DNA from: an archaeon GW2011_AR18 | Lineage (GTDB): Archaea; Nanobdellota; Nanobdellia; SCGC-AAA011-G17; GW2011-AR18 | Length of the DNA: 64,000 nucleotides | Reading direction: 5' to 3' | NCBI GenBank assembly: GCA_000806155.1 | Contig: JWKX01000007.1 | Span: 1-64,000, forward strand | Shown here: piece by piece, positions 4,989 through 46,982 of the stretch | Layout of the letters: the number at the start of each line of letters is the position of its first letter | How positions within the stretch are numbered: the first letter of the stretch is position 1 | Notes under the pieces: generated by a model | The model's input: the letters and a program-made list of their open reading frames with translations, nothing else | The model's database searches: none | Told to the model about the DNA's origin: nothing | Translations under genes and position numbers: made by a program

Positions 4989-5834
4989 ATGACAACAAAA
5001 GAGGGGCAGGTTTCAAATCTTATTGGTATTGCAGCAACTAAATTAGCTAATGAGATCTCTGCTACTAGTATTCTCTCTTTTGAAAGGTCTGCTTCTGATC
5101 TGTATTCTGATTCTTTGTATCATGAGATTAAAGTCTCTCTTTTCAAGAAAGTTGGTTACTCTCAGTACATTAAAACTGAATATAAGACTAAGATTAAAAA
5201 ACCTTCTTTAGGTTCTATGATACCTATTAAGGAATTGATTGCAGAAGCTTATTATAATAAATATCTCTCAAAAGGCGAGACTATTGTATGTATTCAGGAT
5301 GATTCTTTTGATAATGGCTTTAAAGGTTATTTATCAATAATTAATATCGACGCTCTTTTTTCTGATAATAATACTAGTATCTTATATGAAAATGTCCATC
5401 CTGATATAATTGATTCAATTATAGAAATAGCTTTAGAGATATCAAAATATGGGAGAGAAGGAAAGAAAGTCGGCACTGCTTTTATTATTGGTCCTAAAGA
5501 AATTTTGAAATATTCTAAGCAGTTGATAATAAATCCTTTCCAGTATATAGAGCCTGAGAAGAAGAAGATTACTGATCTTGAATTACGTGAGACTATCAAA
5601 GAATTCTCTCAGTTGGATGGTGTTTTCATGATTGATAATGATGGCACTATCTTATCATCCGGGACTTACATTGATATTGATACAGAAGGTTTGAATCTCC
5701 CTCAGGGTCTTGGTACTAAACATCGTAATTGTGCAGCTATCACAGCTAAGACTTCTGCTATAGCTTTTGTTGTCTCATCTTCTGGTGGTAAGATTAAAGT
5801 TTTCAAGAATGGTAAGATTGTAATGACTATTTAA
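4989..5834 (+). CDS. dacZ: Diadenylate cyclase (DisA_N domain, DacZ type)
   Basis: Makes the second messenger c-di-AMP from two ATP. The C-terminal DisA_N domain shows LDGVFMIDNDG (the DGA-like loop) near residue 208 and GLGTKHRNCAAI (the RHR-like loop) near residue 240, followed by AFVVSSSGG. The N-terminal half resembles the pyruvate-kinase-like C-terminal fold found in archaeal DacZ. I chose the ATG at 4989 because TTTAAA lies 27 bases upstream, fitting a leaderless message; the frame is open back to a TTG at 4899. The usual DGA Ala is Val here and the RHR Arg is Lys. In archaea c-di-AMP is tied to osmotic and potassium balance. The gene ends with a 4-base convergent overlap. Confidence 0.85.
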   Translation: MTTKEGQVSNLIGIAATKLANEISATSILSFERSASDLYSDSLYHEIKVSLFKKVGYSQYIKTEYKTKIKKPSLGSMIPIKELIAEAYYNKYLSKGETIVCIQDDSFDNGFKGYLSIINIDALFSDNNTSILYENVHPDIIDSIIEIALEISKYGREGKKVGTAFIIGPKEILKYSKQLIINPFQYIEPEKKKITDLELRETIKEFSQLDGVFMIDNDGTILSSGTYIDIDTEGLNLPQGLGTKHRNCAAITAKTSAIAFVVSSSGGKIKVFKNGKIVMTI

Positions 5835-6199
5835 TTCATTATCCTGTCTTTTAAAGAATCTACTTGTTCTTCTATTGTCTCTACTTCATCCTCAATCTCG
5901 TCAAGGATTCTTACTAATTCTTCATTATCTTTATTTTTTCTTGCATATGGATTATCGTTTAATGTTATTAACAGTTCTAGGAGGATTTCATGCATTTTAT
6001 TTAAGTCTTTGAGGTTGAGATTATTTGCAATTGCTCTGGCTCTAAGGTCTTGGAAACTTCCTATATGAATTAATGCTTCGGCTATAATCTTCTTTGGTAA
6101 GTATTTTCTCAAAGCCTCTATTTTTCTTTCATCTAGACCATTTATTTTTGATATGTTTTTTCTTGGAGGAATATCAATGTTTAATATGGGTATATGCAT
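5831..6199 (-). CDS. Hypothetical protein with helix-hairpin-helix-like segment and coiled coil
   Basis: A 122-residue protein. Residues 16-35 (INGLDERKIEALRKYLPKKI) resemble a helix-hairpin-helix/SAM-like segment, and the last 30 residues are a strongly acidic coiled coil. No catalytic motif. It is convergent with the c-di-AMP synthase gene and overlaps it by four bases. Function unknown. Confidence 0.6.
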   Translation of the reverse strand: MHIPILNIDIPPRKNISKINGLDERKIEALRKYLPKKIIAEALIHIGSFQDLRARAIANNLNLKDLNKMHEILLELLITLNDNPYARKNKDNEELVRILDEIEDEVETIEEQVDSLKDRIMN

Positions 6200-6261: not shown

Positions 6262-6382
6262 GCCCCTGTAGCGCAGCCTGGATTTTATTAAACTAGATAG
6301 CGCGTCAGGTTCCTAACCTGTAGGTCGTGGGAGGTTAAATCATGCGTGGTTTAATCAACGAATTCAAATCCCATCAGGGGCG
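6262..6382 (+). tRNA. tRNA-Arg(CCU) with a D-loop intron and a T-arm intron
   Basis: The acceptor stem is GCCCCTG/CAGGGGC, discriminator G at 6382, no encoded CCA. The anticodon loop TTCCTAA gives anticodon CCU at 6312-6314. Two insertions must be removed to fold it. Intron 1 (6284-6298, 15 nt) is in the D-loop and has a BHB-like 4-bp helix CTGG/CTAG with ATT and ATA bulges; splicing restores GCGCAGCCTGGATAGCGC. Intron 2 (6332-6362, 31 nt) lies between T-stem GTGGG and loop TTCAAAT (position 53/54), with a 9-bp internal hairpin GGTTAAATC/GGTTTAATC. The mature length is 75 nt. A TTTTTAAAG box is about 27 bp upstream. The 27-43 pair is a U-U mismatch. Confidence 0.85.
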
Positions 6383-7625: not shown

Positions 7626-8690
7626 TTATCTCTTTTGGTGTTTTTCTTGTAAATATGATTTTCTTAGATTTTTCATTAAGTTTTGTATAAAATATAGATT
7701 ATGTATGCTTCCATATCTCTCTTTTATTGGTTCATGTGTTCTGTACAAGTGATGTAAGAATGCTTTGCTGTAATTTTTACATACAGGACATTTACAGTTT
7801 TCATCTAGTGGTTCCTCTTCATCTCTGTACATTGCTTTTTCTATATTGATCTTTCCTTTACTAGTAAATATTCCTCCATGTCTTGCATTCATTGTTGGAA
7901 ATCTTGAATCAAATGCATCTACTCCTAATTCTACAGATGTTACTATATCTTCCGGGCTTCCAACTCCCATTAAATATCTTGGTTTTTCTTTATCTAAATG
8001 TTTTGTACTGAATTTTATTGTATTATACATTATTTCTCTTCCTTCTCCTATTCCTAATCCTCCTAATGCTATCCCATCGAAGTCTAGTTTATTTATGAAT
8101 TTGCAGCTTTTCTCTCTTAATTCTTTAAAAGTTCCACCCTGGCATATTCCAAATAATAATTGTTTCTTATCACTATGTGATTTTACACAACGTTCTGCCC
8201 ATAAATGTGTTATTCTTGTACATTCCGCAATATATTCCTCATTATTTCCGTAATGTGGTACATAATCTAGTGCCATTGCAACATCTGATCCTATGGCTTT
8301 CTCTATTTCCATTATATCTTCAGGAGTAAAGAATTTTATACTTCCATCATATGGGTTTTTGAAATGTACTCCTTTTTCATCTGCTTTATGTAAGAATGCT
8401 TTGCTTAATATCTGGAATCCTCCTGAATCTGTGAATATTGTCTTATCCCATTTCATGAACCTGTGTATCCCATTAAATTTTTGTAGAATATCTAATCCAG
8501 GTTTTAAGTGTAATACAAATGCATTTGCAATTATTGCCTCTGTTCCTATCTCTTCTAGATCTTTAGGGCTTACAGCTTTTGGAGTTCCTTTTGTTGCTAT
8601 TGGCATGAAGAAAGGAGTTTTTACTATTCCATGTCTTGTTTTTAGTGTTCCTGCTCTTGCCTCTTTATCTTGTGAACTTATCTTGAACAT
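7626..8690 (-). CDS. tgt: tRNA-guanine transglycosylase, bacterial-like (TGT)
   Basis: A 354-residue enzyme of the queuine/TGT family, which swaps a genetically encoded guanine in tRNA for a 7-deazaguanine base. Visible motifs are TDSGGFQ, FGICQGG, GGLGIGEG, FDSRFPTMNARHGG (nucleophile Asp region) and the zinc site CKCPVCKNYSKAFLHHLYRTHE near the C-terminus. The length and absence of a PUA domain match the bacterial position-34 enzyme rather than archaeal ArcTGT (position 15, about 500 residues or more). I chose the Met at 8690: TTTATAATT lies about 27 bases upstream, and the longer frame to 8762 lacks family similarity. Whether it uses queuine, preQ1 or preQ0 is open. Confidence 0.85.
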   Translation of the reverse strand: MFKISSQDKEARAGTLKTRHGIVKTPFFMPIATKGTPKAVSPKDLEEIGTEAIIANAFVLHLKPGLDILQKFNGIHRFMKWDKTIFTDSGGFQILSKAFLHKADEKGVHFKNPYDGSIKFFTPEDIMEIEKAIGSDVAMALDYVPHYGNNEEYIAECTRITHLWAERCVKSHSDKKQLLFGICQGGTFKELREKSCKFINKLDFDGIALGGLGIGEGREIMYNTIKFSTKHLDKEKPRYLMGVGSPEDIVTSVELGVDAFDSRFPTMNARHGGIFTSKGKINIEKAMYRDEEEPLDENCKCPVCKNYSKAFLHHLYRTHEPIKERYGSIHNLYFIQNLMKNLRKSYLQEKHQKR

Positions 8691-8756
8691 ATTATTGAGA
8701 AATATTGCTCTAATTATAAAAGTAATCTTTTTATAAGCATTAAACATAATTAAATT

Positions 8757-9521
8757 ATGCAAAAAGCTGTCGAATTCAAGAATAGTGATGGTTTAACTTT
8801 AAGAGGATTTGTTTACGAACCTAAAAAATATGATACAGCAATTGTTTTTCTTCATGGTTTTCCTGCAAATTGTAAATATATTGTAGCTTCTAATATGGGT
8901 AATTATCTGGAAAGATTAGGTTATTTATTTCTTTGTTTTGATTTTAATGGAACAGATACATCTGATGGTAAATTTGAAGATAAACTAATGAGTAAAGAAG
9001 TTAAAGATGTTAAGTATGCTATTGATTTTCTTTCTAAGAATTATAAATTCAATAAATTAATCATTATTGGTCATTCAACAGGTGCTATTGATGCTGCATT
9101 ATATTCTTACAAAGATAAAAGAGTTGATAAATTAATATTGTTAGGTGGTGTTGGAAATTTAAAACAGGCCGTAAGATATGATTTTTCTGATGAAGATGTT
9201 CATGATTTCAAGACTAAAGATTATATAATCTACAAGAATAAAAATCATTGGACTTATAATAAGAAATTAAAAAGATCATTTTATGATGAGTTTTTTACAT
9301 TAGATGTTCTAGGTTCATTGCATAAATTTAAAAAACCTGTTTTAATAATTCATGGAAGTAAGGATGAATCAGTTCCTGTGGAAAAAGATCCTCAAGAGTT
9401 ATACTCTGCAGCCAATGAACCTAAGAAATTAATAATAATTAATGGGGCTGATCATAAATTTTCAAAATTAAGACAAGGATTAAAAGTTTTATATTACATT
9501 AATAAATTTATTAAAAATTAA
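8757..9521 (+). CDS. Alpha/beta hydrolase
   Basis: A 254-residue serine hydrolase fold. The oxyanion HGFP lies near residue 34, the nucleophile elbow GHSTG near 103, GSKDESVP near 205 carries the acid, and GADHKFS near 232 the histidine. The family covers esterases and acylaminopeptidase-like enzymes; the lack of a lid and the DGLTLRGFVYEP start are typical of small cytoplasmic esterases. No signal peptide. It is divergent from the tgt gene. Substrate unknown. Confidence 0.85.
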   Translation: MQKAVEFKNSDGLTLRGFVYEPKKYDTAIVFLHGFPANCKYIVASNMGNYLERLGYLFLCFDFNGTDTSDGKFEDKLMSKEVKDVKYAIDFLSKNYKFNKLIIIGHSTGAIDAALYSYKDKRVDKLILLGGVGNLKQAVRYDFSDEDVHDFKTKDYIIYKNKNHWTYNKKLKRSFYDEFFTLDVLGSLHKFKKPVLIIHGSKDESVPVEKDPQELYSAANEPKKLIIINGADHKFSKLRQGLKVLYYINKFIKN

Positions 9522-10459: not shown

Positions 10460-10491
10460 GGCCACTGGACACGACACGGACGCCCGCCAGG
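10460..10491 (+). other. GC-rich block before the homing endonuclease gene
   Basis: A 32-base stretch that is 75% G+C, in otherwise AT-rich intergenic DNA, ending at a TATA-like GTTTATAACT. It can form a CTGG/CCAG stem. Its composition is unlike its surroundings; it could be the end of a stable RNA or a regulatory site. No known motif recognised. Confidence 0.3.
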
Positions 10492-10520: not shown

Positions 10521-11291
10521 ATGCTATCAAATGATGAAAGAGAGAATATTATACTGCTATTGAAATTAGGGTATAGTATAAATGAAATAAACAAGATTAC
10601 TCATAAGAGCAAAGGCACAATCTATACTTATTATAAAAAATTATTTGGTAAGAAAATTAAAGATGTATCAATAAATGAAGCAGATGACGAATTTATAGGG
10701 GAATTAGTGGGTTTATTTGTTGGTGATGGTAATGCATATCATAATAAAAAAGAAGGGAAATATATGATAAGATTCTTTTTTAACTGTAATGACTTATCGC
10801 ATAATTCTCAGCTTGTTGAGTTTTTCAGTAAAAATTTTGAAAAAAGTCCTAATATCTACAAAGAAGAGAATGTTTTAATTTTTACTTATATTTCTAAAAA
10901 ACTTTTTAAATTTCTATTAAACTTTGTAGTTTGGGATATTTCTGTTGATATATTGGGAAGAAATAGAAAAAGTAGAACAATATATCTTAAACCTAGAGAT
11001 TATTCTTTAAACTTTAAAATAGGGTTTCTTAGAGGTTTTATGGATAGTGATGGACATATCTCAAATAAAAAGATACAATTCTCATCTGCTTCACAAAGAA
11101 TTATGGACAAAACAATGAGTTTTTTATTGGAATGTGGATTTATAGATATGAATTACTATTTTTATGAAGAAAAGAGAAAAAATAGAGTTGGTATGTACCA
11201 TATTGCACTTAATAAATCAGAAAGAATGAACTTTTTTAGAAGGGTTCAGCCAAGAAATCTTAGAAAATTAAATGCACCAGCCGGGATTTGA
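10521..11291 (+). CDS. LAGLIDADG homing endonuclease, free-standing
   Basis: A 256-residue protein. Residues 1-45 form a resolvase-like helix-turn-helix (LLKLGYSINEINKITHKSKGTIYTYY). Two LAGLIDADG motifs follow: LVGLFVGDG near residue 67 and FLRGFMDSDG near residue 172, each with the catalytic acid. It is therefore a monomeric two-motif endonuclease. The ATG is about 25 bases after a TATA-like box. The last codons run through the T-loop of the tRNA-Gly gene on the other strand, so the gene abuts an intron-bearing tRNA. It may spread tRNA introns or the local segment; its target is unknown. Confidence 0.8.
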   Translation: MLSNDERENIILLLKLGYSINEINKITHKSKGTIYTYYKKLFGKKIKDVSINEADDEFIGELVGLFVGDGNAYHNKKEGKYMIRFFFNCNDLSHNSQLVEFFSKNFEKSPNIYKEENVLIFTYISKKLFKFLLNFVVWDISVDILGRNRKSRTIYLKPRDYSLNFKIGFLRGFMDSDGHISNKKIQFSSASQRIMDKTMSFLLECGFIDMNYYFYEEKRKNRVGMYHIALNKSERMNFFRRVQPRNLRKLNAPAGI

Positions 11292-11388
11292 ATATCCGAA
11301 CATTAAGTTTAAACTTAACATCTCCCGGATCAAGAGCTTACCTCTCTATAATGGAAGGCTCTAATGCTAACCATTACACCACTGGTGC
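11273..11388 (-). tRNA. tRNA-Gly(UCC) with an anticodon-loop intron and a T-arm intron
   Basis: Acceptor stem GCACCAG/CTGGTGC, discriminator A, no encoded CCA. The anticodon loop starts CTTCCA, giving UCC. Intron 1 (11339-11351, 13 nt) sits at the canonical 37/38 site with BHB helix CTTC/GAGG. Intron 2 (11293-11323, 31 nt) lies between T-stem CCGGG and loop TTCAAAT (53/54); its BHB has helix TCCG/CGGA, three-base bulges GGA and TAT, and a long inner hairpin containing AAGTTTAAACTT. Removing both leaves 72 nt with a perfect T-stem. The overlapping endonuclease ORF is on the other strand. Confidence 0.85.
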
Positions 11389-25841: not shown

Positions 25842-27404
25842 ATGAATATAGATAAGAGCTTTTATTGTATAATGTCTGTTGTTTTTGGACTATTCTTTTT
25901 AATTATTTCTGGATTGCTTAGTCTGTTCAATCAGTTATATAGTTTATGTGGTTATTGTTCTATTGTATCATTGAATGAATTAAAAATCCTATTTTTTTGT
26001 TTGGGTATTATAATAATCTTGTTTTCATTATTTATATTGAAGTCAAATAAAGACATATACTCTTTAATGAAGATTGTTATTCCAATAATATTAATATTTT
26101 TGTTTTTTATTGCTTTTAATAAGGTATTTAATCAGGATGAGATAGAGCACCTTCATGTTTCTTGGCTGATAGCAAATGGTGGTAATGTATATCAAGAGTT
26201 TATAGAATTCCATACCCCATTATTGTTATTTATAATATCCTTGTTTTTCAAAGTCTTTGGAAATTCTTTGTCTGCTTTGTATGCTGCTCGTATGTTTTCA
26301 TTTATGATATTCTTGCTTTTGGTATATATGACATTTATTTTGGCTAAAAGGTTATACAATAAAAATATTGCTTATATATCTGTTATTTTGTTAGTATTTA
26401 ATTCAGTATTTTTTTCAGCATCTACTGAAATACTTCTGGATGGTTTTAGTGCTTTATTAAATATTATTGCCATTTATCTTATTATTTTAGATAAAAAGAA
26501 ATTTGCTTTTATATCTGGATTATTGTTTGCTCTTGCATTTTTTACAACCCAGAAATCTGCTGTTATAATAATCTTTGTTGTATTATGGCTTTTTTTCCAA
26601 AAAAAATATGTTGTTATGCGTAATGTAATAACTGGGGGTATTATAACAGGTGTGCTGGGGTTTTTTATGATATTTATTGGTGGGTTATGGAATGATTTTT
26701 TTTATCAAACTTTTTTTGTGATGTTTGCATGGCATACTGATGTTCCTGTTATTGCAATGGTTAAAGGAATTATGGTTGAATATTCTCTTTTTATTTTATT
26801 GCTTTTGATGTCTTTGAATAAATTAAGATTTAAGCATGATATTATAAGTTTTTTATTCCTTGGGCAGGTTTTAATTTTTATTTCTTTAATATTCTCAATT
26901 TCATGGATTGGTAGGCAGGATTTTATTTTTCTTAGTATAATAATTAGTATTATTATAGCTCGTGGAATTTATGATTCTTCAGATAATATTAAACGTTTTT
27001 TTATTATTGTAATGATTATTTATTTAGTGGCAAGCAGTCTTTTTATTGGAAGGTATATCTTTTCTACAAATGATATTCAATTGAGGACAACTGATTTTGT
27101 TTTATCAAACTCTAATAATTCTGATTTAATAATTGATGTTAAGCCTACAGCAGCTATATTTAGGAAAGACACGTCTTTTTTATGGTATAATAGGATTGAG
27201 GCTATTCCAGCGATGCAAAAAATTGGATATAATATTAGTTATAACTTTTCTGATGAATTGTTAAAAAAACCCAAAATATTATTGAGGTACGGTCTTTTGA
27301 AAGATGAAATTGCTATATTGTATTGTTATGATGAGATTGTTAAAGATTCTTATGGCGCACCTATTAAGCCTTTATTTTTATATAATTCTACTCGGTGTAC
27401 TTGA
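25842..27404 (+). CDS. Membrane glycosyltransferase, PMT/ArnT-like
   Basis: A 520-residue protein with about eleven to twelve hydrophobic helices. The first large outer loop has FNQDEIEHLHVSWLI near residue 97, the acidic motif used by GT-C enzymes to bind metal and lipid-linked sugar, and HTPLLLFIISLFF after it, as in PMT/ArnT-type glycosyltransferases. It should transfer a sugar from a polyprenyl phosphate to a surface target. I chose the ATG at 25842; a TTG six bases earlier is possible. It lies directly downstream of a lipid-sugar synthase. Confidence 0.8.
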   Translation: MNIDKSFYCIMSVVFGLFFLIISGLLSLFNQLYSLCGYCSIVSLNELKILFFCLGIIIILFSLFILKSNKDIYSLMKIVIPIILIFLFFIAFNKVFNQDEIEHLHVSWLIANGGNVYQEFIEFHTPLLLFIISLFFKVFGNSLSALYAARMFSFMIFLLLVYMTFILAKRLYNKNIAYISVILLVFNSVFFSASTEILLDGFSALLNIIAIYLIILDKKKFAFISGLLFALAFFTTQKSAVIIIFVVLWLFFQKKYVVMRNVITGGIITGVLGFFMIFIGGLWNDFFYQTFFVMFAWHTDVPVIAMVKGIMVEYSLFILLLLMSLNKLRFKHDIISFLFLGQVLIFISLIFSISWIGRQDFIFLSIIISIIIARGIYDSSDNIKRFFIIVMIIYLVASSLFIGRYIFSTNDIQLRTTDFVLSNSNNSDLIIDVKPTAAIFRKDTSFLWYNRIEAIPAMQKIGYNISYNFSDELLKKPKILLRYGLLKDEIAILYCYDEIVKDSYGAPIKPLFLYNSTRCT

Positions 27405-27445
27405 TTTACAGATAACTTTATTAAGGTCATTTAGTAATCACTATT

Positions 27446-28882
27446 ATGACTGAAGTTTTATGTATTGTACCTCCATTTAATTACGGTAAACTCGATTCTG
27501 TAGGTCCTAAATGTCCTAATCTGGGAATTGGTATAATAGCCGCTCTTATTGAGACTATGAAGTATGATGTTAAGATACTTGATTGTTTTGGATTGGAACT
27601 TTCTGAGGAAGATACTCTTAAAGAAATAAAAAAGCATAATCCTAAGTTTATTCTTATTGGTGCTGTTACTGCAAATTTTTCAATTTCATTAAATCTTCTT
27701 AAAAAAGCTAAATCATATAACCCTCATGTAATAAATATTGTTGGCGGCCCTCATGTTACAGTTAATCCTGAATCAGCATTTGATAATAAAGGAGTTGTAG
27801 ACTTTGTTGTTATTGGAGAGGCAGAAGAGACTATTGTAGATTTGCTCAATTATCTTGATAAAAAAGATTATATGAAGCTTGATGATATTAAGGGTTTGAT
27901 GTATGTTAATTCATCAGGTAAAATAACAAAAACTGTTGATCGTGGTGTTGTGAAAATTCTTGATAATCTTCCAATGCCTGCTTATCATTTGTTTCCTATG
28001 GAAAAATATCATTCTTATGGTTGGCTTAATCTTGGAAGAAAGTTTACAACTATGATTACATCTCGTGGCTGCCCATTTAAGTGTAATTTCTGTCAAAGTT
28101 CACAGCAGGCTAAATATTGGCGTCAAAGATCTTCTGATAAGGTTTTCGATGAAATAAAATTATTGTATGATCAGTATGCAATAAGGCATATCTATTTTCA
28201 GGATGATGAATTTTGTGTTAATCATCAGAGGATTATTGAGATGTGTAATAAGATTAAAGAATCTAAGATGGATCTTGTCTGGGAATGTTTAACAAGGGTC
28301 AATCATATGGATGATGAACTTCTTGGTGCTATGGCAAGTGCTGGTTGTAAGAGTATACTTTTTGGTATTGAAACAGGTTATGATGAAGGTTTTAAACTGA
28401 TTAATAAGCCTATAAACTGTGATATGGTTATTAATGCTGTTCAGATGGCTCAAAAGCATGGTATTCTTGTAAAAGTTACTTTCATTATGGGTTTCCCTTG
28501 GGAAGGCGAAGAGGAAATGAAAAAGACAATAGCTTTTGCAAAGAAGGTAGATGCGGATCTTACATTTTTTAATATATTGAATCCTTATCCTGGAACTCCT
28601 GTATATAATGAAGTTATTGCCAATAATCTTTTCGAGCAGCCTGAAAATTATGATGGTCATATTATTCATGGTACAGATCCTTTGATAATGACTAAGAAAT
28701 TATCTGCAAAGCAGTTAAGATATTGGAGTGGCAGAGCTGTTTTGGAGTTTTATCTTAGACCTTCATTTATTTTTAAGAGGGTTTTCAAGATTAGGAATTG
28801 GACAGAGTTTAAAAATAATTTCTTTGGAGGTAATGATCTTTTAGGTCTTGCTTTTAAGAAAGTTTGGGCTGGTAGGAATTAA
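27446..28882 (+). CDS. Radical SAM protein with B12-binding-like N-domain
   Basis: A 478-residue protein. Residues 1-140 form a cobalamin-binding-like Rossmann domain (PNLGIGIIAALIE, IVGGPHVTVNPE), but the DxHxxG cobalamin motif is not seen. The radical SAM domain follows, with SRGCPFKCNFC near residue 206 supplying the CxxxCxxC cluster, then HIYFQDDEFCVN and GCKSILFGIETG. The C-terminal region is helical. Such enzymes methylate or rearrange lipids and small molecules. It lies after the two glycosyltransferase genes on the same strand, so a surface-lipid role is possible. Substrate unknown. Confidence 0.82.
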   Translation: MTEVLCIVPPFNYGKLDSVGPKCPNLGIGIIAALIETMKYDVKILDCFGLELSEEDTLKEIKKHNPKFILIGAVTANFSISLNLLKKAKSYNPHVINIVGGPHVTVNPESAFDNKGVVDFVVIGEAEETIVDLLNYLDKKDYMKLDDIKGLMYVNSSGKITKTVDRGVVKILDNLPMPAYHLFPMEKYHSYGWLNLGRKFTTMITSRGCPFKCNFCQSSQQAKYWRQRSSDKVFDEIKLLYDQYAIRHIYFQDDEFCVNHQRIIEMCNKIKESKMDLVWECLTRVNHMDDELLGAMASAGCKSILFGIETGYDEGFKLINKPINCDMVINAVQMAQKHGILVKVTFIMGFPWEGEEEMKKTIAFAKKVDADLTFFNILNPYPGTPVYNEVIANNLFEQPENYDGHIIHGTDPLIMTKKLSAKQLRYWSGRAVLEFYLRPSFIFKRVFKIRNWTEFKNNFFGGNDLLGLAFKKVWAGRN

Positions 28883-43226: not shown

Positions 43227-46200
43227 ATGAGTGAGAAAAAAAATGAGGGAATTATTATAGCTGAACAGCTAAGACCTATTGAGAAGCTTGCAGTCGAAGG
43301 ACCTAAAGTTAAAGTTACTGAAAATCAGCTTAAGGTTATGGCTAATAAATATTTGAGGGGAGATTCTGTTGAACTCTGGTTGAGACGTATTGCAAGGAAT
43401 ATTGCTTTGGCAGAGTTATTATATGATAATGGTATTACTAAAGACGAAATTTTGAAAGGTGTTTCTCATAAAATAATAAATTTAGAAAATGATGAAAAAA
43501 ACAAAATAATTTTACTACAAGATCAATTAATGAATAATGATGAAAGGTGGAAAAATTTTTATATTTTTGAAGAAAATTTATCAAGAATTGCATCTCAGAA
43601 TATTATTGCAACAAAATTATTAAAAGATAAGGAAGAAGAATTCTATTCTATACTATCTAATTTTGATTTCTTGCCTAACTCTCCTTGTCTGATGAATGCT
43701 GGTAGAGAATTGCAGATGCTTCATGCTTGTTTTGTTATTCCAGTTCCAGATTCTATTGAAGGAATTTACAAGGCTGTTATGGCACAAGCTCTTATCCAGA
43801 AATCTGGTGGCGGTACTGGTTTTGCATTTTCTAGAATAAGACCTGAAAATGATGTTGTTAAATCTACTAAAGGTATTGCTTCTGGTCCTATGTCTTTTAT
43901 AAAACTTTTTGATGTCTCTACAGATGTTGTTAAACAGGGTTCAACTCGTCGTGGTGCTAATATGGGTATATTATATTATAAACATCCTGATATTAGAAAA
44001 TTTATTACTTCAAAATCTAAGGATAGAGGTTTTTTGCAGAATTTCAATATTTCTGTTGCTATAGATAAAGAGTTTATGGATGCTGTTGAAAATGATGGTG
44101 AATTTGATCTTATTAATCCTAAAACTAATAAGCCTGTGGCAAGAGAAAAAGCCAGGGAGATTTGGGATTTGATAGGTAAATGTGCTTGGGAGACTGGAGA
44201 TCCTGGTTTTGTTGTTATTGATAAAATTAATGAAACTAATTCAAATCCTACTCCAAATTTAGGACAGATAGAAAGTACTAATCCTTGTGTTACTGGTGAT
44301 ACATTAGTTTCTACTGAATTTGGTTTAATTAGGATGGAAGATTTAGTAAATAATTATCCTGAAGGAGGATTAAATATATTAACTGATAATAGAGTTCCTT
44401 TAGAAATTAAAAATTCTAATGGTTCTGTTATGTATATGAAACAAGTAAAAATAAATGGTATTTCTTTTGATAAAATTTCTAGAGCTTTTACTACAGGTGT
44501 TAAAGAAGTTTTCAGAATAGAGACATATTGTGGATTAGAACTTGAAGCAACTGCTGATCATAAACTATTGACTCCAAAAGGTTGGGTTGCTGTTAAAGAT
44601 TTAAATCCAGAAAAACATGAATTATTTATTCAACAAGATGAAGGAACTTTTAACAGGGATATTAAATTGCCTTTCAATGTCGAAAACGATTTTAAAGGAA
44701 AAAATGGTAGATGGTATAATTTAAATCTTCCTGAACAATGGTCTAAAGAACTAGGACAAATTTTAGGATGGTTAATAGGTGATGGTTGGTTAAGAATTGG
44801 TGATAAAGATTGTCGTGTAGGTTTTACTTTCGGTAAATCAGATGAAGAAGTATTAAATTATTTAAAGCCTTTAATAAATAAATTTTATGGTAAAGAAATT
44901 AAGGAAGTTAAGAGAAAACGTAATACTAAACATCTTTCTTATCACTCTAAATATTTTGTTGATTTCTTTCATAAGTTAGGTGTTAAGCATGTTGATGCAC
45001 AATATAAAACAGTGCCAAAATCTATTTTCACTGCGAATAAGGAAGCAGTAATTGGATTTTTACAAGGATTATTCACATCTGATGGTACTGTTAATTTTAA
45101 TAAAGAAAATTCAACTTCATATATTAGATTAACTTCAAAATCTGAAAGATTATTGAAAGAAGTACAATTATTGCTTTTGAATTTAGGCATAACCTCTAAC
45201 ATATTTGATAGATCAAGAGAATATAGAGAAGGTTTATTTGAATATGTAAATAGACATGGCGAAATTGTTACTTATAGTTCTGATGGTATTCTATTTGAAT
45301 TGAACATGACTAGAGATAGTATAAAATTTATTGAGAATATTGGATTCTTGTGTGAAAAGAACAAAGAGAAATTAGATAAATTTTACACTAAAGATTTTTA
45401 TTCTCCAGAATTTTCAACACTTATAAAGTCAATAACTCCTATAGGTGAAAAGAAAGTTTACGACTTAACTGAGCCTAGAACATTAAGTTTTGTTACAAAT
45501 GGTTTGTTGTCACTAGATTGTGGTGAACAGCCACTCTTACCTTGGGAACCATGTACTCTAGGAAGCATTAATTTATCTAATCATCTTAAAACAGTAGATG
45601 GAAAAACTGTTGTTGATTATGAAAAATTAAAAAGAACAGCAAGAACAGCTACTAATTTTTTAGACAATGTTGTAGATATAAGCAACTATGCATTACCAGA
45701 AATAGAATACATTTCAAAAAGCAACAGGCGTATTGGTCTTGGTGTTATGGGTTGGGCTGAGATGCTTATTAAATTAGGTATTCCTTATGATAGTGTTGAA
45801 GCTATTACTCTAGGTGAGGAGCTTATGGCTTTCATTAATGCAACTTCTTTAGAGATGTCTGAACAGTTGGCTGAGAAGCGTGGAGTGTTCTTCAATTGGA
45901 AAGATAGTATCTATGATGAATCTGGTAAATTTTTCAGAGGTGTTTCAGGTCATCCTAGAAATTGTGCAAGAACAACTATTGCTCCTACTGGAACTATTGC
46001 AATTACAGCTGGATTACAAGGCAGTGGTATTGAACCGTTCTTTGCTATTGTTTACAAGAGATATCAGGCTGAAGCTGTTGATGCTTTGAAGAAGGGTGAA
46101 GAGCCAGATGAGAAATATGTTTATTACGAAACTATTCCTTTATTCGAGGAAGTCGCTAAAGCTAATAATTGGTTTGGTCTTGATAAGATCAGTTTGTTTA

Positions 46201-46982
46201 AAAAAATTGTTGACAACCATGGTTCTCTTAAGGGCTTGAAAGAAATTCCTATGAATTTACAAAAAGTATTTACTTGTGCTCAGGATACTCACTGGAAGAC
46301 TCATATTGACCATCAGGCTGCTTTCCAGAAATCTGTTGATAATGCAGTTTCTAAGACTATTAACATGTCTAACTCTGTTACTGTTCAGGATATTCAGGAA
46401 GCTTACAAGTATGCATATACTGCTGGTTGTAAAGGAGTTACAGTTTACAGAGATGGTTGTAAAGAAGTTCAGGTATTGAATGCTGGTAATTCATCTAAGC
46501 AGAAAGAGACTGACTTCTCTCAGGGTGTCTCTTCTGATTATTATGAAGTACAGACTGGTTATGGAACATTGCATGTAAATATTGTTCATGACAATAAAGG
46601 TCCATCAAGGATTTTTGCATCAATACCTCCAATAGGAACTGAACTTAGTAGTTTGACTTCTGTTTTAGGTATTTTCATGTCTAAAGCTATTCAGTCTGGA
46701 TATGATCCTAAGAAAGCTATAAAACACTTGAATTCAGCTAAGGGTGACAAGCCTATTGGTTTCGGTCCTAACCGTGTTGATTCAATTCCTCATGCATTAG
46801 CTATTGCATTGAAGAGGCATCTAGAAAAAACTGGTAAATTAGCTAAAGGTGATACTAAATTAACTGAAGTCAAGGAAGTCAAGAAAGAACACTGTCCTCA
46901 ATGTTATAGTTCAAATGTTCAGTACATCAGTGGTTGTTCAGAACCTACATGTAATGACTGCGGCTATAGCAAGTGCAGTTAA
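43227..46982 (+). CDS. nrdJ: Class II (B12-dependent) ribonucleotide reductase with an intein
   Basis: A 1251-residue precursor; removing the 411-residue intein leaves 840. The extein shows LPNSPCLMNAG (a redox Cys), SGGGTGFAFSRIRP, the active-site motif NPCGEQPLLP (split), APTGTIAITAGLQGSGIEPFF, and a C-terminal TSCPD-like domain with zinc/redox cysteines (CPQC...CNDCGYSKC). It reduces ribonucleotides to deoxyribonucleotides using adenosylcobalamin. No class I small subunit is needed. It lies between nrdR and thioredoxin. The intein interrupts the Cys of NPCGEQ, the thiyl-radical residue in this family. Confidence 0.93.
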   Translation: MSEKKNEGIIIAEQLRPIEKLAVEGPKVKVTENQLKVMANKYLRGDSVELWLRRIARNIALAELLYDNGITKDEILKGVSHKIINLENDEKNKIILLQDQLMNNDERWKNFYIFEENLSRIASQNIIATKLLKDKEEEFYSILSNFDFLPNSPCLMNAGRELQMLHACFVIPVPDSIEGIYKAVMAQALIQKSGGGTGFAFSRIRPENDVVKSTKGIASGPMSFIKLFDVSTDVVKQGSTRRGANMGILYYKHPDIRKFITSKSKDRGFLQNFNISVAIDKEFMDAVENDGEFDLINPKTNKPVAREKAREIWDLIGKCAWETGDPGFVVIDKINETNSNPTPNLGQIESTNPCVTGDTLVSTEFGLIRMEDLVNNYPEGGLNILTDNRVPLEIKNSNGSVMYMKQVKINGISFDKISRAFTTGVKEVFRIETYCGLELEATADHKLLTPKGWVAVKDLNPEKHELFIQQDEGTFNRDIKLPFNVENDFKGKNGRWYNLNLPEQWSKELGQILGWLIGDGWLRIGDKDCRVGFTFGKSDEEVLNYLKPLINKFYGKEIKEVKRKRNTKHLSYHSKYFVDFFHKLGVKHVDAQYKTVPKSIFTANKEAVIGFLQGLFTSDGTVNFNKENSTSYIRLTSKSERLLKEVQLLLLNLGITSNIFDRSREYREGLFEYVNRHGEIVTYSSDGILFELNMTRDSIKFIENIGFLCEKNKEKLDKFYTKDFYSPEFSTLIKSITPIGEKKVYDLTEPRTLSFVTNGLLSLDCGEQPLLPWEPCTLGSINLSNHLKTVDGKTVVDYEKLKRTARTATNFLDNVVDISNYALPEIEYISKSNRRIGLGVMGWAEMLIKLGIPYDSVEAITLGEELMAFINATSLEMSEQLAEKRGVFFNWKDSIYDESGKFFRGVSGHPRNCARTTIAPTGTIAITAGLQGSGIEPFFAIVYKRYQAEAVDALKKGEEPDEKYVYYETIPLFEEVAKANNWFGLDKISLFKKIVDNHGSLKGLKEIPMNLQKVFTCAQDTHWKTHIDHQAAFQKSVDNAVSKTINMSNSVTVQDIQEAYKYAYTAGCKGVTVYRDGCKEVQVLNAGNSSKQKETDFSQGVSSDYYEVQTGYGTLHVNIVHDNKGPSRIFASIPPIGTELSSLTSVLGIFMSKAIQSGYDPKKAIKHLNSAKGDKPIGFGPNRVDSIPHALAIALKRHLEKTGKLAKGDTKLTEVKEVKKEHCPQCYSSNVQYISGCSEPTCNDCGYSKCS
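44286..45518 (+). mobile_element. Intein in ribonucleotide reductase, with LAGLIDADG endonuclease
   Basis: Residues 354-764 (411 aa). It starts with Cys1 (CVTGDTLVSTEFG, block A); block B is TADHKLLTPKGW. The endonuclease motifs are LGWLIGDGW and LQGLFTSDG, so it is a two-motif LAGLIDADG homing intein. The end VYDLTEPRTLSFVTNGLLSLD is followed by Cys+1 of CGEQ. The last residue is Asp instead of Asn, the penultimate is Leu instead of His, and the block F His is absent. Splicing may therefore be slow or use a variant route. Confidence 0.92.

Follow-up and report, generated by a model that had tools for sequence, protein, structure and literature searches.

Non-canonical introns of archaeal tRNA genes are known in the D-, V- and T-arms (PMC3293823, PMC12397907), and for tRNA-Thr of Caldiarchaeum intron gain via a mobile element has been proposed (PMC3293823). 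How introns came to be gained at such scattered sites of archaeal tRNAs is unsettled; the published models invoke transposition or integration, with the enzyme not identified. Collaborative homing is described for phage group I introns (PMC3984707, citing Zeng et al. 2009).

Here we present an analysis of a tRNA-Gly(UCC) gene of the archaeon GW2011_AR18, interrupted in its T-arm at position 53/54 and overlapped at its 3' end by a homing endonuclease gene (HEG). The window, by which we mean the whole stretch of DNA analysed, comprises 64,000 nucleotides of contig JWKX01000007.1, and its features are collected in Table 1. The organism is probably a woesearchaeote: with its tRNA-guanine transglycosylase as query, Woesearchaeota were obtained, and a Woesearchaeota MAG, 79% identical over one protein, is the closest relative with a name; the HEG as query gave no named relative. 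In our reading, to which we give a probability of roughly 0.6, the T-arm insert is a BHB intron that the tRNA-splicing endonuclease of the host excises and that HEG-driven co-homing (collaborative homing) propagates, with both splicing and cleavage predicted from the sequence.

The tRNA-Gly(UCC) gene scored 34.2 bits against RF00005 (Rfam cut-off 29 bits), and intron-tolerant annotation placed two inserts in it, of 13 nt at 37/38 and of 31 nt at 53/54. The earlier note, made from the letters of this DNA, had already described the longer one as an intron with a clean BHB; annotation returned identical coordinates, and the motif proved to be a strict BHB, in which a 4-bp central helix, TCCG/CGGA, lies between two 3-nt bulges, GGA and TAT, flanked by an outer TTGA/TCAA helix and an inner helix paired at 5/5. 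When the 53/54 intron is taken out, an intact T-arm, CCGGG-TTCAAAT-CCCGG, and the canonical cloverleaf are restored, and the fold of the precursor has z = -4.8. Over 15 T-arm introns of the same order 58/60 central-helix pairs are formed, whereas shuffled introns form 21 on average and at most 35, and permuting the introns among the tRNAs never reached 58 pairs in 20,000 trials. As this pairing is far above that of shuffled or permuted introns, the T-arm introns are taken to be real features of the tRNA genes.

Table 1. Coordinates of features in the 64,000-nt window
Feature	Position	Strand	Details
tRNA-Arg(CCU), two inserts, no adjoining HEG	6262-6381	+	
15-nt D-loop insert of tRNA-Arg	6283-6297	+	boundaries approximate
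31-nt 53/54 intron of tRNA-Arg	6332-6362	+	weaker BHB, 3/4 central pairs
tRNA-guanine transglycosylase gene	7626-8762	-	among the relatives found are bacteria (40-42% identity) and no more than a few archaea; perhaps a gene of bacterial type within an archaeal genome
27-nt motif, CTGGACACGAC-N9-CGCCAGG	10465-10491	+	29 nt before HEG start, just 5' of TATA-like box GTTTATAA
Free-standing two-motif LAGLIDADG HEG, 256 aa, N-terminal HTH	10521-11291	+	ORF, Pfam, AF2, Foldseek
tRNA-Gly(UCC), two introns	11273-11388	-	72 nt once spliced, plus N73; Rfam RF00005
31-nt T-arm intron of tRNA-Gly, position 53/54, AGATGTTAAGTTTAAACTTAATGTTCGGATA	11293-11323	-	strict BHB
tRNA-Gly BHB central helix, 3' strand, CGGA	11295-11298	-	intron positions -6 to -3
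tRNA-Gly BHB central helix, 5' strand, TCCG	11326-11329	-	tRNA positions 48-51
13-nt tRNA-Gly intron, canonical 37/38 site, TTATAGAGAGGTA	11339-11351	-	boundaries inferred from anticodon arm
1251-aa ORF with internal LAGLIDADG match	43227-46982	+	probably an intein

The HEG running into the 3' end of tRNA-Gly had escaped the earlier note. Its final 18-19 bases, including the stop codon TGA, fall antisense in the acceptor and T-loop of the tRNA gene, and a single base separates the stop codon, ending at 11291, from the intron, which starts at 11293. The protein matched Pfam LAGLIDADG_3 (E 1.7e-10), with both motifs (GELVGLFVGDG and FLRGFMDSDG) and the invariant acids D69 and D177 intact. Its AF2 model (pLDDT 86) had as best Foldseek match I-DmoI (E 2.5e-9, TM 0.74 by target length); I-DmoI is the LAGLIDADG enzyme belonging to a 23S rRNA intron of archaeal origin. 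A PDB sequence search gave nothing useful. Motifs and modelled fold thus point to a LAGLIDADG homing endonuclease, predicted to cut a specific long DNA site. No att-like direct repeats were found flanking the gene. An intron devoid of an ORF adjoined by a free-standing HEG is the arrangement of collaborative homing, and it is present at tRNA-Gly.

The 27-nt motif ahead of the HEG, together with a TATA-like box, was located at nine sites in the genome, and at least five of these precede LAGLIDADG-like ORFs; the reversed-pattern control gave 0. The other copies are at G000:C1:1208, C4:28240, C7:69125, C9:10458, C10:26543, C12:23527, C15:5959, C15:15568. Since the motif is also found ahead of an ORF for an Lhr-like helicase, of a BRO-like one and of further sites, it was ruled out as a HEG-only promoter; possibly it is a shared operator.

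We propose that the 53/54 intron and the HEG overlapping the tRNA-Gly(UCC) 3' end form a two-part selfish module. In tRNA-Gly(UCC) genes that lack the intron, the endonuclease would cut the continuous T-arm/acceptor region; the resident gene, whose recognition site is divided by the intron, would be spared. With the HEG-bearing allele as repair template, HEG and intron would then be copied together into the cut allele by co-conversion, and splicing in vivo would keep the tRNA functional.

A different origin of the intron was considered within the window itself. The earlier note had pointed to an intron of equal length and site, but different sequence, in tRNA-Arg, which the analysis likewise found (31 nt at 53/54), and had taken the coincidence for a sign of spread or common origin. 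Intron transposition between the two genes, as proposed for Thermoproteales, would agree with the identical site and identical 31-nt length, but the Gly and Arg introns resemble each other no more closely than shuffled sequences do (P 0.53), and the central helix is not the same in the two (TCCG/CGGA in Gly, CGTG/AACG in Arg). Moreover, 53/54 introns in these archaea span 21-33 nt and recur in tRNAs Gly, Pro, Tyr, Trp, Met, Ile and Arg, so that equal length is weak evidence and the common site is a recurrent one. Transposition from Gly to Arg or the reverse was therefore rejected as highly improbable. Spread as such is plausible on other grounds, since mobility of the Gly intron is supported by the adjoining HEG, the pairing in other families, an empty site and the likeness of the intron to that of genome G056, all described below.

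The earlier note had also advised looking for other 53/54 introns in the genome, and further ones came to light. On contig C15, tRNA-Pro(UGG) has three introns, of which one interrupts the acceptor stem (~4/5), the second lies at 37/38 and the third, of 32 nt, at 53/54, and a candidate 32-nt 53/54 intron was noticed in the initiator tRNA-Met on contig C4. This tRNA-Pro(UGG) gene (L061, minus strand) lies downstream of the genome's second core HEG, at 5171-5929. The initiator tRNA-Met (G000:C4 ~27219-27509; L301:1301-1591), adjoined by a convergent, frameshifted LAGLIDADG-like gene, apparently contains at least five introns with approximate boundaries, on the acceptor 5' and 3' sides, in the D-loop, in the anticodon arm and at 53/54; up to three introns per tRNA are cited in a review. 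Inserts in the T-loop were observed as well, of 23 nt (~59/60) in a tRNA-Ala (G000:C12:66564) and a long one in a Leu/Ser-type tRNA (G000:C7:75105), with similar inserts in G036 and G081. Despite the many tRNA introns, no match to EndA (PF01974) was obtained in this 90%-complete assembly; EndA is present in 57/61 genomes of the relatives search, and its absence here is probably an assembly gap.

A profile built from eight homologues of the HEG found matches in 91/103 genomes of the order. Among 77 free-standing relatives in the order, the distance from the 3' end to a tRNA is about 60 bp or less in at least 54 (44 counted by script at 60 bp, ~10 more from Rfam or by eye), and the best matches outside the order adjoin a tRNA in 21/21 cases (19 by script, L316 by Rfam and L323 once its second frame fragment was counted). 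In 1.6 Mb of sampled stretches, some of them on contigs already known to hold HEGs, a tRNA was located at the 3' end of 5/10 HEGs vs 13/1609 other ORFs (p 2e-8), the share of ordinary ORFs adjoining a tRNA being about 1%. Two layouts occur: the HEG is either convergent with the tRNA, its stop codon often in the T-loop, or upstream on the same strand, its stop codon sometimes in the D-arm region.

The HEG clades follow the tRNA isotype and not the host. The Gly(UCC) clade (support 100/99) covers families f1 and f10, the Pro(UGG) clade (support 100/99) families f1, f5 and f10, and the wider HEG tree requires 29 isotype changes vs at least 34 when shuffled. We tentatively extend the proposal, at somewhat less than even odds, to a large tRNA-targeting LAGLIDADG family that would cause non-canonical BHB introns to be gained, and to spread, in the tRNAs of Woesearchaeota and related archaea, with lineages tied to an isotype, lodged against the tRNA and often borrowing their stop codon from it.

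The pairing of HEG and intron was followed at Gly(UCC). Within the order, an intact convergent HEG adjoins this tRNA in three genomes (G000, which is the present one, G028 and G056), all three with the 53/54 intron, vs 5/56 Gly(UCC) genes without such a HEG (p about 0.002). An independent draw outside the order (G106, G146, G263, G266) gave the 53/54 intron in 4/4 Gly(UCC) genes, with perfect BHBs, which brings the count for all intact convergent HEGs at Gly(UCC) to 7/7. G061, a congener of G056, has no 53/54 intron, and its HEG, located at the same junction, is frameshifted and falls in two frames. Convergent HEGs together with 53/54 introns were also noticed at tRNAs Pro (G046), Tyr (G047, G032), Trp (G066), Met (G063) and Ile (L327), and in the sampled stretches T-arm introns were found in 3/6 HEG-adjacent tRNAs vs 1/34 others (p 0.008).

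Homing endonuclease genes prefer harmless insertion sites, and the tRNA flank might be such a site beside an ordinary, vertically inherited non-canonical BHB intron, with the association at Gly(UCC) coming from shared ancestry. Although other archaea, too, are known to have T-arm introns of the non-canonical kind (PMC3293823, PMC12397907), we regard this explanation as improbable, given that 51/56 Gly(UCC) genes without a convergent HEG are intron-free at 53/54 and that the pairing was replicated outside the order in 4/4 cases. The distribution within families is patchy too, as G062 and G063 (f10) have neither the intron nor the convergent HEG that G056 has at Gly(UCC).

Occupied and empty alleles of the site both exist, in G056 and G063, that is, between species of one family. 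In G063 the intronless tRNA-Gly is directly followed by what we take, from its sequence rather than a profile search, to be a PIG-L-type deacetylase gene, while in G056 the intron and the HEG lie between the same tRNA-Gly and the same PIG-L-type gene; in G061 the HEG is likewise between the two. The flank CATTCAAAAACCTTAAATAA resumes past the HEG in G056 and G061; in G063 this flank has one base more. Between the present genome and G056, which is of another family, HEG identity is 53% vs 25-40% for four other protein pairs, and the Gly introns are similar (P below 0.0005). Joint transfer of HEG and intron would be the simplest reading for this pair of genomes, the four comparison proteins being a small sample.

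Introns at 53/54 with no HEG beside them, namely those of the five Gly(UCC) genes (G005, G019, G024, G049, G084) and of the genome's own tRNA-Arg, bring in a further explanation, in which a BHB intron at the T-arm cut site gives immunity to homing endonucleases or integrases and lets the host tolerate a neighbouring HEG, intron and HEG having arrived independently. Randau and Soll, cited in PMC3293823, have proposed that disruption of tRNA genes is protective. This explanation also agrees with the fact that likeness among the introns is for the most part unrelated to the HEG: for seven Gly(UCC) pairs, intron similarity and HEG similarity were not correlated (Mantel p 0.61), so co-divergence of the two is not supported, and among the seven HEG-linked Gly(UCC) introns the bodies are clearly similar in two pairs only. 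HEG-free introns are, however, also expected after HEG loss, and the 53/54 intron at 7/7 intact convergent Gly(UCC) HEGs, together with the HEG and similar intron common to the present genome and G056 across families, makes such a defensive origin unlikely in our opinion, if less so than mere inheritance.

Several convergent HEGs adjoin intact T-arms, most of them at Gly(GCC), where the tRNAs have no T-arm introns, and some at Pro and others, so the family includes HEGs that do without a T-arm intron. T-arm introns were linked to HEG orientation in the raw counts (8/22 vs 2/29, p 0.013), a link that lost significance when phylogenetically independent pairs were compared. Read directly from the DNA are the BHB intron, a HEG with both motifs intact, its convergent overlap with the tRNA, the recurrent pairing, the empty site and the isotype-tracking HEG lineages, and the recurrence of the pairing across related archaea suggests that the endonuclease helps tRNA introns to spread.

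The openly accessible literature that was searched yielded no account of LAGLIDADG genes lodged against tRNAs in DPANN archaea. A HEG adjoining the tRNA, its repeated pairing with T-arm introns and the empty site name a candidate enzyme for intron gain and make the question testable. If the wider proposal of a tRNA-targeting endonuclease family is true, that family would represent an active mechanism by which archaeal tRNAs gain introns.

The locus resembles the BHB tRNA introns of Thermoproteales and others (PMC4033280, PMC4390854) in that its introns are short, occupy a non-canonical site within a BHB and occur several per gene; for the introns in those two papers no endonuclease gene is described beside the tRNA, whereas here a LAGLIDADG gene adjoins it and recurs with the intron. 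With phage collaborative homing (PMC3984707) it has in common an ORF-less intron, a neighbouring free-standing HEG and, by prediction, the convergence of both on one conserved target site; in the present case, however, a BHB tRNA intron predicted to be spliced by protein takes the place of the group I intron, the host is an archaeon, the enzyme is of the LAGLIDADG type and the target site is a predicted one. The likeness to I-DmoI lies in the modelled structure and in the link to an archaeal BHB intron; I-DmoI, however, is encoded inside its rRNA intron, while the present HEG is outside the 31-nt intron, next to the tRNA, and has an extra N-terminal HTH. Finally, as in tRNA-Thr of Caldiarchaeum (PMC3293823), an ORF-containing insertion next to an archaeal tRNA is linked to the gain of its intron; for Caldiarchaeum an integrase/att model was proposed, while here a HEG alone is inserted at the end of the tRNA, and this is so for many genomes and isotypes.
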